Shown here: piece after piece, positions 28,176 through 33,037 of the stretch
Layout: every line of letters begins with the position of its first letter
Numbering within the stretch: the first letter of the stretch is position 1
From: Opitutaceae bacterium
GTDB lineage: Bacteria; Verrucomicrobiota; Verrucomicrobiia; Opitutales; Opitutaceae
NCBI GenBank assembly: GCA_018667915.1
Contig: JABIRI010000100.1
Coordinates: 1-33,582, forward strand
Direction: 5' to 3'
Length of the DNA stretch: 33,582 nt
Position numbers and translations under genes: made by a program
The notes under the pieces: model-generated
Told to the model about the DNA's origin: nothing
Databases searched by the model: none
Seen by the model: the letters and a program-made list of their open reading frames with translations, nothing else

Positions 28176-29558
28176 TCAGTTGGTTTTGTCGTAGAATTTT
28201 GCGCGGTGGGCTTCGGCCCAAGATATCAGTTCGGCGGCGATGACAGGTTCTTCGTTGATGAGATTAATGAGCTCATTGGGATCGTTTTTTAGATCGAAGA
28301 GCGATAGGCCGATTTCCCATTTTTGAAAGACTCCATCCTCACCGTCGTTGCCGGATTGAATCAAATGGCGGTAACTGTGCGGGAGATGCAGTTTCCATTT
28401 ACCATCGCCGGTAATGATACCTTCGAAGGTTTTAGAGGTCGAAAATGGGTAGTAGTCATGCGGGTTGGTCGCGAGGGGCTGACTCGTGAGAATCGGCCAG
28501 ATGTCGCGGCCGTCGATCTCGTGCTCGGGGAACTTCGCACCGGCTAATTTTACCAAGGTCGGCATAAAATCGATGGTATTGAAAAGCGTGGTGGAGCGGT
28601 GTCCGGCGGGGATTGCCGGCGGGTAGCGCACGACCGTGGCGCTGCGCAATCCACCATCGAAACCAGTAGCTTTCGCTTCGCGCCAAGGCGTTGCGCCGGC
28701 GTGATTACCATAGCTGTGCCAAGGACCGTTGTCGGAGGTGAAGATCACGATCGTATCGTCGGCGATTTCATTCGCGTCGAGCGCCTTCATGACTTCGCCG
28801 ACCGACCAATCGAGCTCCATCATCACGTCGCCGTAGAGACCCATGCCGGACTTGCCGGCGAAGCGTTCGCTTACGAAGAGAGGCACGTGCGGCATGGAAT
28901 GGGCGAGGTAGAGAAAGAAGGGTTGATTGTGGTGACGGTTGATGAAGTCGACGGAGTTTTCCGTTGCCCAGACCGTGAGGTTTTCTTGGTCGGATTTCTC
29001 CATGTCCTCGATCGTTACCTTGCCGTTGTCCCAGAACTGCAGCGGGTGTTTTCCCCAGTGCTCAGGGTTGCCTGGGTGGAAGCGCCACATGTCGTTGGAA
29101 TACATGAGTCCGGCGTGTTCATCGAAGCCACGGGCGAGGGGACGGGTCTCGGGGAGATCGCCGATGTGCCACTTGCCGAAATGTCCGGTCGCGTAGCCGT
29201 GTGGTTTCAGCAGCTCGGGCAGGATCTTGATGTCGGGAGTCAGTCCGCGACCAAAAGGACCGTGCGCGCCAAAGACGCGGTTGCGGCCCGGCACGGTGCC
29301 ACTGAGCAGAGCGGCGCGGGAAGCGGAACACACCGCCTGTGGCACATAGACGTTGTCGAAGCGGGTGCCTTGGGCCGCGAGGCGTTCAACATGGGGAGTC
29401 TCGTAGTTCGGATCGCCGAAGGGCTTGAAATCAGACCATCCGGAGTCGTCCAAAAAGATGATCACGATGTTGGGTGGGCGGGCCTTTTCGGCGGAGGCCG
29501 AGAAGCAAAAAACGATAGCACACGTGAGTGCGAGTAGGCGGGGTAGGAGGCGATTCAC
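28176..29558 (-). CDS. Secreted sulfatase (arylsulfatase A-like), operon leader
   Basis: A 460-residue sulfatase with a signal peptide (NRLLPRLLALTCAIVFCFSASA). The metal-binding DD is at 37-38 (IIFLDDSGWSD), the active-site CSASR is at 77-81, and downstream are GKWHIGD, the SDNGPW metal motif and HPHVPLF-like AHSMPHVPLF, the conserved His-containing loop. It belongs to the broad arylsulfatase A-like group, so its substrate is uncertain. It is the first gene of a four-gene minus-strand operon (12-base gap, then two ATGA overlaps), which suggests the substrate is a sulfated sugar whose anomers are then handled by the epimerase-like protein. It is divergent from the BNR_4 gene, and the shared promoter would lie in about 115 bases. 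Confidence 0.92.
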   Translation of the reverse strand: MNRLLPRLLALTCAIVFCFSASAEKARPPNIVIIFLDDSGWSDFKPFGDPNYETPHVERLAAQGTRFDNVYVPQAVCSASRAALLSGTVPGRNRVFGAHGPFGRGLTPDIKILPELLKPHGYATGHFGKWHIGDLPETRPLARGFDEHAGLMYSNDMWRFHPGNPEHWGKHPLQFWDNGKVTIEDMEKSDQENLTVWATENSVDFINRHHNQPFFLYLAHSMPHVPLFVSERFAGKSGMGLYGDVMMELDWSVGEVMKALDANEIADDTIVIFTSDNGPWHSYGNHAGATPWREAKATGFDGGLRSATVVRYPPAIPAGHRSTTLFNTIDFMPTLVKLAGAKFPEHEIDGRDIWPILTSQPLATNPHDYYPFSTSKTFEGIITGDGKWKLHLPHSYRHLIQSGNDGEDGVFQKWEIGLSLFDLKNDPNELINLINEEPVIAAELISWAEAHRAKFYDKTN

Positions 29559-29673
29559 GGCTACAGAACTTGGCGAGTTGAGGAGTGCTAGGCCAATGAA
29601 ATATCATTGCAGGTTTTTGGGTAAAATCGTGATCGGCGCTTGTGCGTTTTCGGGAACTGACGGACCGTGGGGT

Positions 29674-31050
29674 ATGCAGGAATTACCCCTCTCCTCGTCG
29701 CCCTCCAGTGGTTTGATCGTATGGCTACGCCGTTTGTTCTGCTTGGAAATTCGCTTATTTGCCTTTTTGGCGATTTTCATGCTCGTGTCGTCGGTCATGT
29801 TCGGCGGAGAACGGTTTCTGCTTTCGAACGAAGGATCAGGTCGTGCGACTGCCTACGTTGAATCACCCAAAATTATTTCGTTCGACGGCAAGACGCATGC
29901 CGCGTGGCTCGATACTCCGCCGGCAGGAGGCTTTAGCGTAAGAATCCGAACCCGGGACAACGCTACCGGTGAGTGGTCCGGTGTAACCGATATCGGCGAA
30001 GCCACTGACAACCACGGTGGCCCCGCTTTGACCGTTGATGAGGAGGGTTATCTGCACGTTATCTACTACTCGCATCATCACCCTTTCCGTTACCGAAAAT
30101 CAGTGCGGCCTAACGATTCGTCGGAATGGACCGAGTATGCCGAGTTTGGCGTCGACCTGACTTACCCAGCTTTGGTGTGTGCAACGGATGGCACGCTGAT
30201 CATGACAGCGCGTCGGAGTTTTAAGGAGAAGCCCTGGGAACTCGAAATGTGGACTAAGGCGCCGGGAGGAGACTGGGCCCGGCAGCGTTCTATCCTGCGC
30301 TCCCGTCATTTAGTTTATACTCAATTTACCGCGTCCCTGGCGTGGGGGCCGGATCATAAAACCCTGCATCTGGGCGCCCGTATCTATGAAGTGCCCGGTG
30401 AGGATGCGATGGTTTCGATCACTACCGTGGGGTATCTTGCGAGCGACGATAACGGCGTGACGTGGCGAAAGGCGAACGGCGACGCGGTTGCACTCCCCGC
30501 TACGCCGGAGACGTTTGACTCCGTGTCCGCGGGTCGAACATCCCACGGTCAAAGTCTACACGTCGGTTCAATGGCGGTAGATGCGAAGGGGAAACCGCAT
30601 TTGGTTTATGGGGTAAAAACTGAGGAAACCGCGCAGTCTTACTGGGCCTCACTGGCGGAGCATGGTCAGTGGCAACGTCACCACCTTAATCCCTATTTAC
30701 CGGGCAAATTTCGTGAATGGGATCTGTTCATGCACGGCGGAATTTCATTCGGAGCGGATGGGCAGCCCCTCATCGTGGGCACCGTGATGCAGGTGCAGCC
30801 TGGGATGCACGAGTGGGGTGAAGTAACGACCGAGCTGGTGCGTTTCCATTCCCATGACGGAGGAACGACGTTCACCGCCGATATCCTCGATAAACCTGAT
30901 GCTGAGTCCCCGCGTTGGATGCCCAATATCGAACGCCCCACCGGCTTCAACGAAGTTGCTGATCAACCCAGCTTCATCTACACCGACGGCGTCCGCGGCG
31001 ACGCCCTCCATGACGTCCTGAGCAATCACGTCTACTGGATCTCTAACTAA
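29674..31050 (+). CDS. Secreted BNR_4-family protein, possible polysaccharide lyase
   Basis: A 458-residue secreted protein of the BNR_4 type (PF15892-like), a seven-bladed propeller fold that includes ulvan lyases of families PL24 and PL25. The N-terminus (LRRLFCLEIRLFAFLAIFMLVSSVMFG) is a signal peptide. The conserved pattern DNHGGPAL (His114), YYSHHH (His134-136), DLTYPAL (Tyr164) and MTARRSF (Arg180/181) matches the order and most of the spacing of catalytic residues I recall for a PL25 ulvan lyase (H-x19-H, then Y-x15-R). It may therefore cleave a sulfated uronic-acid polysaccharide. I chose the ATG at 29674; ATG 29596 is an alternative, and the frame is open to 29425. It is divergent from the sulfatase operon. 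Confidence 0.75.
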   Translation: MQELPLSSSPSSGLIVWLRRLFCLEIRLFAFLAIFMLVSSVMFGGERFLLSNEGSGRATAYVESPKIISFDGKTHAAWLDTPPAGGFSVRIRTRDNATGEWSGVTDIGEATDNHGGPALTVDEEGYLHVIYYSHHHPFRYRKSVRPNDSSEWTEYAEFGVDLTYPALVCATDGTLIMTARRSFKEKPWELEMWTKAPGGDWARQRSILRSRHLVYTQFTASLAWGPDHKTLHLGARIYEVPGEDAMVSITTVGYLASDDNGVTWRKANGDAVALPATPETFDSVSAGRTSHGQSLHVGSMAVDAKGKPHLVYGVKTEETAQSYWASLAEHGQWQRHHLNPYLPGKFREWDLFMHGGISFGADGQPLIVGTVMQVQPGMHEWGEVTTELVRFHSHDGGTTFTADILDKPDAESPRWMPNIERPTGFNEVADQPSFIYTDGVRGDALHDVLSNHVYWISN

Positions 31051-31052
31051 AC

Positions 31053-31153
31053 GGGGTCAGGTCGTGATATTTATATTAAATATCTGAATGCGTCAGCATG
31101 ACCCAGTTGGTGGGTCTTTTGGCAAAAAAATATAATAATCACGACCTGACCCC
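31053..31153. mobile_element. 101-bp inverted-repeat element (MITE/REP-like)
   Basis: The 16-base ends GGGGTCAGGTCGTGAT (31053-31068) and their exact complement (31138-31153) enclose an AT-rich interior. The left end lies two bases after the BNR_4 stop codon. The right end contains the last four codons and the stop codon of the Kef gene on the minus strand (Gly-Val-Arg-Ser-stop). Ends starting GGGGTCAGGTC recur, as I remember, in REP-type elements moved by RAYT transposases; no transposase is present here. Confidence 0.7.
31100..31120 (+). terminator. Stem-loop with T-run after the BNR_4 gene
   Basis: GACCCA (31100-31105), loop GTTGG, TGGGTC (31111-31116) and then TTTT. It lies inside the 101-bp element, 50 bases past the BNR_4 stop codon, and would terminate plus-strand transcription. 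Confidence 0.5.
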
Positions 31154-33037
31154 ATTTTCACGGAGTTTGGTGTTGTCCCAGGCGTCGTCGACGGAGGGGT
31201 CGATGCTCTGGCGGTCTTCTTCGAACTGATCCTCCATTTCCGAGATACTGCGGCGGACTTGGGTGGCGAAGGCATTTTCGTCTTTGTGCACGGCGGCGAT
31301 TTTGGTGGCGGCTTCGCGGTCAAATTTGGCAAAGGCCTGCGCCAATCGATTGGCGCGATGAGCCCGATAGCCCAGCTCTTCTAGTGCGCCGCGGGCCAGT
31401 TCGATGGCGCTGCCGGCATGTTGATGCACGGTGCGGGTGATGCCGTCGTTGATAAGTTCGAAGTGGTGCGGACGTGAAAGCGCGCGCACCAGAATCTTCA
31501 GATGAGGGAAGTGTTTGCGGGTGGTGGCGATCAATTCGGTCACCTTGTCTTCGTCGCCCAGTGTGATGATGAGCAGCTTGGCTTTGTGCGCTCCAGCCGC
31601 TTCCAGAAGGTCGTGACGGTTGGCGTCTCCGTAAAATGCTAGGATACCCAGCTTACGCAGAAAATCGATGTGGTCGGAGTCATGATCGATGACCGTCACA
31701 TCGATTTTTTGAGCCCGGAGCATACGGGCAACGAAGTTTCCGAAACGTCCAATTCCTGCCAGGATGACGGGTGAGTCTTCGTCCATCTCGTCCGGCTCTT
31801 TTTCGTTTGTGGTCTTGGTGCCGAAGCGAGGTCGGATGACCCGTTCTTCCAGCACCATTACCAAGGGAGTGAGCGCCATGGTAAGTGCGACACTCGCGAT
31901 GAGGATCTGCGCCACTTCGGTCGCGATCACCCCTTCGGTGATTCCGAACCCGAGCAGCACGAAAGCGAATTCGCTGCCCTGCGCGAGGGAAAGCGCAAAC
32001 AGGAACCGTTGATCGAGCTTGAGTTTTCCGAAGGCGCCCAGGACGAGCAGAATCACGGCCTTCAGCACCATCAGTCCGACGACCACAGCGGCGACCACTC
32101 CCGGTTGCTGTGCGATAAGCGCAAAATCCACGGAGGCACCTACCGCGATAAAAAAGACGCCCAGAAGTAATCCCTTGAAGGGCTCAATGTCGGCTTCGAG
32201 CTCGTGCCGGTATTCGCTGTCCGCCAATACTACGCCGGCGAGAAAAGTGCCCAGTGCGGCGGACACTCCGAGCGAACTCATGAGCAGAGCGATCCCGATT
32301 ACGAGTAAGAGTGCCAATGCAACGAATGCCTCCCGCACGCGCGTCCCGGCGACCAATCGCAGCACGGGTTGCACGACATACCGACCGGCAAGGATGATTG
32401 CGACCACCGCGCCCAATACCAGCAGGGTATTGACCCATGAGGGTTGGTGCGCCAACCAGTCTTGAAATGCCGAAGCGCCATGACCGTGTTCACCGTCCCC
32501 GGCGCCGGCTGGAGTGAGCGTCGCGAGCAGTGGGAAAATTGCCAGCATCGGAATCACGGCGATATCCTGAAACAGCAGCACGGAGAACGCACTGCGTCCC
32601 CCAGAGGTGTTGGACAGGTTTTTCTCCTGTAGGCCCTGGAGCACGATGGCGGTAGACGAAAGTGCGAGCGCGAGACCGATGGCGAGAGCCATCTGCCAAG
32701 TTAGGCCAACGAACGCTGCGATCCCGAAGATGGCGGCGGCAGTGAGCACGACTTGTCCACCGCCCAGGCCGAGGATGGGGCCGCGCAGTCGCCACAGGAG
32801 GGAAGGGCGCAGTTCGAGTCCGATGAGGAATAGCATCATGACGACACCGAATTCGGCGAAGTGCATGACGTCTTGGCCCTCTTCACCGACGAGCCCCAGG
32901 CCAAATGGACCGATCGCCATGCCGGCGACGAGGTAGCCGAGCACGGCGCTCAAACCAACGCGTTTGGCGATGGCGACGCTGATGACGGCTGCGAGCAGAT
33001 AAACAAAGACGGCGACGAACAGAGATTGATTGGCCAT
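31139..33037 (-). CDS. KefB/KefC-type cation:proton antiporter
   Basis: A 632-residue membrane protein of the CPA2 family. The N-terminal part (about 1-390) holds 12 or so hydrophobic segments with the family sequences GYLVAGMAIGPFGLGLV, FGVVMMLFLIGLELRPS and ALALSSTAIVLQGL. The C-terminal part is a Rossmann RCK/TrkA-N domain (GIGRFGNFVARML about 425) that would bind NAD(H) or glutathione adducts. It would exchange K+ (or Na+) for H+ to acidify the cytoplasm under electrophile stress. It lies 19 bases after a flavodoxin-fold oxidoreductase, the usual KefF/KefG-Kef pair. Its last four codons and stop are supplied by the 101-bp repeat element, so the original C-terminus may have been replaced. 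KefB and KefC are not separable from this sequence. Confidence 0.88.
   Translation of the reverse strand: MANQSLFVAVFVYLLAAVISVAIAKRVGLSAVLGYLVAGMAIGPFGLGLVGEEGQDVMHFAEFGVVMMLFLIGLELRPSLLWRLRGPILGLGGGQVVLTAAAIFGIAAFVGLTWQMALAIGLALALSSTAIVLQGLQEKNLSNTSGGRSAFSVLLFQDIAVIPMLAIFPLLATLTPAGAGDGEHGHGASAFQDWLAHQPSWVNTLLVLGAVVAIILAGRYVVQPVLRLVAGTRVREAFVALALLLVIGIALLMSSLGVSAALGTFLAGVVLADSEYRHELEADIEPFKGLLLGVFFIAVGASVDFALIAQQPGVVAAVVVGLMVLKAVILLVLGAFGKLKLDQRFLFALSLAQGSEFAFVLLGFGITEGVIATEVAQILIASVALTMALTPLVMVLEERVIRPRFGTKTTNEKEPDEMDEDSPVILAGIGRFGNFVARMLRAQKIDVTVIDHDSDHIDFLRKLGILAFYGDANRHDLLEAAGAHKAKLLIITLGDEDKVTELIATTRKHFPHLKILVRALSRPHHFELINDGITRTVHQHAGSAIELARGALEELGYRAHRANRLAQAFAKFDREAATKIAAVHKDENAFATQVRRSISEMEDQFEEDRQSIDPSVDDAWDNTKLRENGVRS

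Follow-up and report, generated by a model that had tools for sequence, protein, structure and literature searches.

The Kef stop codon lies within a terminal repeat

The window, by which we mean the whole 33,582-nucleotide stretch of Opitutaceae bacterium DNA that was analysed, carries a 101-bp element between two convergent genes, which encode a BNR_4 protein and a KefC-like antiporter (Table 1). The element opens with GGGGTCAGGTCGTGA, closes with the reverse complement of this sequence, TCACGACCTGACCCC, and on folding shows end-to-end pairing at −48.8 kcal/mol. On its left side, two bases separate it from the BNR_4 stop, a TAA at 31048–31050. On its right side, the Kef protein, read from the minus strand, has the tail ...LRENGVRS before a TGA stop at 31141–31139 (protein endings are written here up to the stop), and the last five codons of the gene, GGG GTC AGG TCG TGA, are the element end sequence. 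A preliminary description of this DNA had claimed that the terminal repeat is read as Gly-Val-Arg-Ser-stop at the end of Kef, that the other end starts two bases beyond the BNR_4 stop and that the element fits exactly between the two genes. All of this is borne out by the sequence, with the element filling the Kef/BNR_4 gap and supplying the Kef stop. The stem-loop and T-run that had been noted inside the element are also present (31100–31116, followed by TTTT).

Table 1. Features at the Kef/BNR_4 junction, and the related full-length units
Feature	Position	Strand	Basis or remark
Mini-TIRtron (best assignment), 101-bp non-autonomous TIR element	31053–31153	none	Sequence, fold, family counts
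Left terminal inverted repeat, GGGGTCAGGTCGTGAT...	31053–31077	+	Positions 1–16 and 19–25 paired in fold
Right terminal inverted repeat	31129–31153	−	Sequence and fold; Kef reads first 15 bases as GVRS-stop
Element-supplied last four Kef codons and TGA stop	31139–31153	−	
Left flank AAAC, overlapping the BNR_4 TAA	31049–31052	+	Fits family pattern (A at −2 relative to GGGG)
Right flank, AAAT on the minus strand	31154–31157	−	Matches family flank pattern
Inner stem-loop GACCCA-GTTGG-TGGGTC, then TTTT	31100–31120	+	Possible weak terminator for BNR_4
KefC-like antiporter, 632 aa	31139–33037	−	Na_H_Exchanger and TrkA_N
BNR_4 protein	29425–31050	+	Longest ORF; start position provisional
Full-length methyltransferase-side units	G000 C148 (L241); G002 C56 (L261); G004 C412 (L297); G007 C79 (L275)		

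The element shares its ends with a transposase-bearing unit

The further copies that the preliminary description proposed to look for are numerous: in the 4.28-Mb genome of the window (G000), the 11-base end is present in 47 places, compared with three for a reversed-pattern control, and more copies are found in relatives. One copy of the same end type is full-length (C148:49938–50946, 1009 bp). Between the same inverted ends it encodes a 309-aa protein that matches Y1_Tnp (Pfam, E 1e-9) and carries the NHYH, FQ and YIHLNP signatures, as tabulated for subclass 2.1 of the TnpA-REP transposases. The ∼190 residues beyond the Y1 match gave no further Pfam match at E 0.1.

Units of this kind were named TIRtrons by Di Nocera 2013, their enzymes TIRYTs (TIR-associated tyrosine transposases) and their end motif GGGGWSAS (PMC3733652). 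In Quentin 2018, 20 of the 26 TIRYTs fall in TnpA-REP subclass 2.1, for which a C-terminal helix-turn-helix is reported (PMC6006769). As far as TIRtrons are described in the available text of these papers, the present family resembles them in having a Y1 (HUH) transposase gene between long GGGGWSAS inverted repeats (PMC3733652, PMC6006769), here GGGGTCAG, which is found at both ends of the 101-bp element, and in having TIR copies scattered through the genome (PMC3733652). It may differ from subclass 2.1 as presented there (PMC6006769), since no helix-turn-helix was found by Pfam in the transposase tail. Because its ends match those of the 1009-bp Y1-transposase unit of the same genome, the 101-bp element is best regarded as a short TIRtron copy.

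Where a RAYT transposase gene had been anticipated, a Y1 transposase unit with the same ends is indeed present, but it is bounded by TIRs and does not correspond to a classical RAYT with GTAG REPs. It is very improbable that the element is an ordinary GTAG REP or REPIN with a classical RAYT, and we rejected this identity. The elements resemble such repeats in being short, palindromic, non-autonomous and near gene 3′ ends, and REP_Tyr_transpos is the only NCBIfam match of the transposase (72.1 bits, below the cut-off of 80). However, the GTAG tag is absent, the ends of both the 101-bp element and the transposase unit being GGGGTCAGGTC, and long TIRs with GGGGWSAS are found in place of REP hairpins.

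MITEs of DDE-type insertion sequences are also non-autonomous, bounded by TIRs and equipped with the ends of a larger partner, as is the element here. This assignment was rejected on two counts: the transposase of the partner is of the Y1 and not the DDE type, and there is no target-site duplication in 35 two-ended elements at any of the six border positions tried. Direct flanking repeats of length at least four occurred in 0 or 1 element per border position, and those of length at least two in 0–5 elements versus 0.3–3.3 for shuffled pairs. The exact element borders therefore rest on the conserved ends. HUH enzymes move units without target duplication, and we propose that the Y1 enzyme does so here.

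Kef endings in relatives

We read 104 Kef loci, 103 of them with a readable stop, giving 89 distinct endings; some genomes appear twice. Across the 103, the GVRS ending is confined to the window, and the G005 gene ends in VRS, within an element of this kind. The end motif (with at most two substitutions) lies at the Kef stop only in the window, in G002 (L036 and L084, one record read twice) and in G005, and a further weak match lies 41 nt past the Kef stop in L088. None of the Kef loci read outside the genus has such an element end at the stop. There the tails are ...LKEDTTL, ...FKNTR, ...SRKR and others, and the conserved part closes near WDxxxLR. The possibility that orthologues end at the same residues without the element, which would have counted against the original claim, is contradicted by these 103 loci, as relatives that lack the element end in other residues. 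As a qualification, the median Kef length is 629 residues and many orthologues are of about equal length; the element would therefore have replaced the tail and changed the protein size little.

The Kef protein of G002 (77% identical) ends ...LRAKGVSK at a TAA of its own, one base short of an element of the G002 type; this arrangement is compatible with either stop, the gene's or the element's, being the ancestral one. An element end also lies two bases past the BNR_4 TAA, and there is an element at the Kef/BNR_4 junction in this genome too. The GV of the G002 tail may, at a guess, derive from an earlier element end. In G005 the open Kef frame has only 84 codons and ends ...LREKEVRS inside the element end. 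No clean before/after pair for the Kef site itself was present among the Kef loci read.

At the G005 locus (L318, C4), BNR_4 seems, from the flank alone, to have shrunk to a short remnant, and the element between is still recognisable.

Endings of orthologous genes with and without the element

Other genes offered comparisons of this kind. The methyltransferase stop lies inside the element in G000, G002, G004 and G007, where the endings are QKGVRS, QRGSGCDL, QKGSCR and QKGSGR, respectively; the element-free endings are VTKK in G003 and VTKD in G001 (a seemingly frameshifted G006 copy was left out). The TRAP transporter is ended by the element as GVRS in G004 and GGRP in G007, and has its own stop 1–2 nt before the element in G000, G002 and G005. 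There is no element at its stop in G015, G028 or G031, with a GGGGTCAG string ∼34 nt downstream in G031. For DUF3817, the endings are ANGVRS in G005 and AHGGQAVTC in G007, the gene's own TAA directly precedes the element in G004, and there is no element in G001, G002 or G003. The M50-like protein ends KGVRS in G000 and G005 and has no element in G001.

The DUF3817 element of G000 is broken by another sequence, apparently a second mobile element (L203, C255:135–443), and the reading frame now ends there.

NagB ends ...QRYD in all seven sequences read, which comprise the comparison (G025 and weaker matches lie outside it). The stop is TGA in G001 and G022, which have no element, and in G005, where the element is 18 nt away. 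With an abutting element it is TAA in G000, G004 and G007 and TAG in G002. Judging from these seven sequences, the A-rich edge may arrive with the element.

Recurrence of the elements at gene stops

Element ends were collected from five genomes of one genus (G000, G002, G004, G005 and G007) and sorted blind to genes, by the match of positions 13–28 to the genome's own full-length copy (for G005, one own end and two G000 ends served as the reference). The scores were bimodal. Ends with at least 10/16 matches form class A, and look-alike palindromes that start with the same bases but have at most 8 matches form class B. This rule replaced, after inspection, an initial ad hoc sorting that had given 32/74 versus 9/94. 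From 176 rows, we excluded 18 from G001, G003 and G006, which have no full-length reference, and four whose first nine bases had at least two mismatches, including the G007 TRAP end read as GGRP. Of the 154 kept, six with a score of 9 (none at a stop) and one cut by a contig end fall in neither class. The G002 NagB end lies outside the search pattern and is not counted, and the GTGTTT-type ends of G005 are likewise outside the systematic search.

A coding-gene stop was found at −2 to +25 for 36 of the 81 class A ends and for 3 of the 66 class B ends, with genes predicted from a codon-usage score that had been trained on 13 window ORFs, in place of a full gene caller. The Fisher p-value of 1.4e-8 is too small, because several of the loci behind the 81 ends are orthologous and an element has two ends, so that the ends are not independent observations. 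The 36 genes belong to 23 gene families; orthology thus raises the count without accounting for it. At score thresholds of 10, 15, 25 and 40, the class A counts were 37, 36, 35 and 27 of 81, and the class B counts 3, 3, 2 and 2 of 66; the G005 Kef fragment (EVRS-stop) is under the coding-score threshold and was counted as no gene. Random positions in the same loci had a stop at −2 to +25 in 2.05% of 6000 cases. At least one end is at a stop in 32 of 46 elements, and both ends in four. The remaining class A ends face no gene 3′ end (23/81) or lie 3–20 nt (12) or 21–300 nt (8) after a stop; for the last two, the stop is at +36 and at +39.

The stops outside the element are placed at −2 (13), −1 (4) and 0 (6), with none at −3 or −4. 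Those inside it are at positions 15 (7), 16 (3), 22 (2) and 23 (1), and all three phases thus occur. TAA accounts for 21 of the 23 own stops that lie 0–2 nt before an element; among stops 3–300 nt away it accounts for 4/20 in class A and 12/40 in class B.

These counts bear on whether the Kef ending is a coincidence, in which an unconstrained C-terminal tail met a stop in frame by chance. The tail does vary freely among Kef orthologues, as this would predict, but the same element family ends other genes likewise, far above random, and we regard a chance ending as improbable at the level of the family, though possible for Kef taken by itself.

The class B palindromes (L319, L248, L249, L264 and others) form a second family, which has its first 11–15 bases in common with class A but lies mostly 20–300 bp from gene ends. 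The pairs listed for G000 measure 52–71 bp.

A proposed origin of the Kef ending

We consider it highly probable that the 101-bp element is a TIRtron short copy that was mobilised in trans, replaced the Kef tail and stop, and persists as a gene-end insertion that rebuilds a stop. A TIRYT-type Y1 (HUH) transposase, such as that encoded by the C148 unit, would have mobilised the non-autonomous copy in trans. The element would then have inserted at the kef 3′ end, with the original last residues and stop being replaced and its other side abutting the BNR_4 stop. Because the element end reads as the five codons given above, the Kef frame would have been closed within those codons, leaving the conserved antiporter intact. 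We infer that such insertions persist because the part of the gene that is hit is tolerant and the element end rebuilds the stop. Depending on the phase, this would be a TAA made from a T and the A-rich edge, or GVRS-stop, GSGR-stop and similar endings inside the element end.

Stop codons from repeat ends are already published, REP ends often giving flanking ORFs their TAG stop (PMC3733652). What looks new is the same role for TIRtron ends, and its repeated occurrence at stops. The short copies here cluster at stop codons, and such clustering of TIRs is not reported in the available text of the two TIRtron papers (PMC3733652, PMC6006769). A literature search on repeats, transposons and stop codons, which reached few subscription papers, gave no report of TIRtron ends supplying stops among the matches listed, and the matches to a search for the 11-base end were unrelated by title.

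If the proposal is correct, an odd single gene ending becomes a testable rule, in which members of an element family are often found on stops and their ends rebuild stops; the look-alike family in the same genomes is a built-in control. It would also explain some lineage-specific C-terminal tails and suggests a low-harm route for the spread of selfish DNA in gene-dense genomes.

Does the transposase prefer gene ends?

The stop bias could also reflect the enzyme itself, if the transposase prefers a short A-rich target, with A two bases before GGGG, and insertion is stop-codon-directed rather than selection-filtered. This is a plausible reading that we hold tentatively, and it is compatible with the origin as a TIRtron short copy. 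An A is present at −2 in 79 of 81 class A ends, compared with 37 of 66 class B look-alikes, and TAAA or TGAA stops would offer an A-rich target in ∼58% GC DNA. Between the two ends of 35 elements, the flanking bases at −1, −3 and −4 agree no more than by chance, as would be the case for bases derived from the target. The restriction of outside stops to exactly −2, −1 and 0 fits a directed insertion as well. On the other hand, selection against intragenic insertion would give part of the same bias, there is no empty site showing the original target, NagB points to an A-rich edge that may instead be brought by the element, and the 23 ends that face no gene 3′ end are not accounted for. Overall, the sharp stop positions and the −2 A speak for a degree of target preference by the enzyme, and the little-studied TIRYT transposases would gain a measurable preference to test.

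A requirement for a mismatch at flank position −1 was rejected, as the letters agree in 13 of the 35 elements versus 11.4 by shuffling.

Possible transcription termination by the elements

It is possible that the element terminates transcription of BNR_4, as the preliminary description had raised. The inner part of the 101-bp element is more structured than shuffled sequences (z of −2.2 and −2.5). A conserved inner hairpin was nevertheless rejected for the family, since the mean z over 21 elements folded was −0.13, with 4/21 below −1.

More generally, the elements might be kept as bidirectional terminators between convergent genes, presenting an A-tract, a G-rich stem, a C-rich stem and a T-tract both ways. 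The end-to-end hairpin would suit such a role, as would the position of 15 of the 46 elements, where gene 3′ ends face both element ends within 300 nt. AAA is found at −4 to −2, and hence TTT past the stem on that side, for 40 of the 81 ends. However, a T-tract of only about three bases is short, the inner hairpins are not conserved, and a regional terminator scan gave one terminator-like site versus a shuffle mean of 2.8, which is not above chance. We consider retention as terminators possible but rather doubtful.

Inheritance of the full-length unit

In four species (Table 1), a full-length unit of 1000–1009 bp is found where one and the same methyltransferase gene ends (3′), and the transposases of G000, G002 and G004 are pairwise 59–62% identical. 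From these sequence comparisons, the full-length TIRtron looks to have descended vertically at a fixed locus. RAYTs have been described as single-copy and vertically inherited (PMC8049555).

Elements mostly bear the letters of their own genome at positions 8, 10, 11 and 14: GTCG in 16/19 for G000 and 7/8 for G005, GCCT in 10/10 for G007, GCTG or GCCG in 17/17 for G002 and TTCT in 21/27 for G004, with the signature at position 14 not independent of the sorting, as class membership uses this position. Homology between interiors was sought and rejected; six orthologous-site pairs scored −0.47 to 0.00, and none stands out from all 253 pairs (mean −0.22, sd 0.32).

A broader scheme can be drawn from these data, although we think it unlikely in full. 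A vertically inherited, single-locus Y1 transposase would maintain stop-directed mini-elements across species divergence, inserting them at TAA- or TGA-like sites and remaking the stop in any phase, with ends matched to the host unit and interiors that drift. If true, this would make it a mobile element specific to gene ends, one that rewrites the C-termini of proteins.

The lengths of two-ended class A elements seem bunched (about 55, 92, 102 and 113 bp) despite their unrelated interiors, an impression with no statistics behind it. In G006 (L279, L310–L316), eight copies of one end with identical eight outer bases all lie on the minus strand and are perhaps part of a longer repeat. Finally, G000 carries a second unit, of 1010 bp and another end type, with a Y1 transposase match inside (L247, C134:42790–43119); the gene beside this unit reads 39 bases into its end before the stop.
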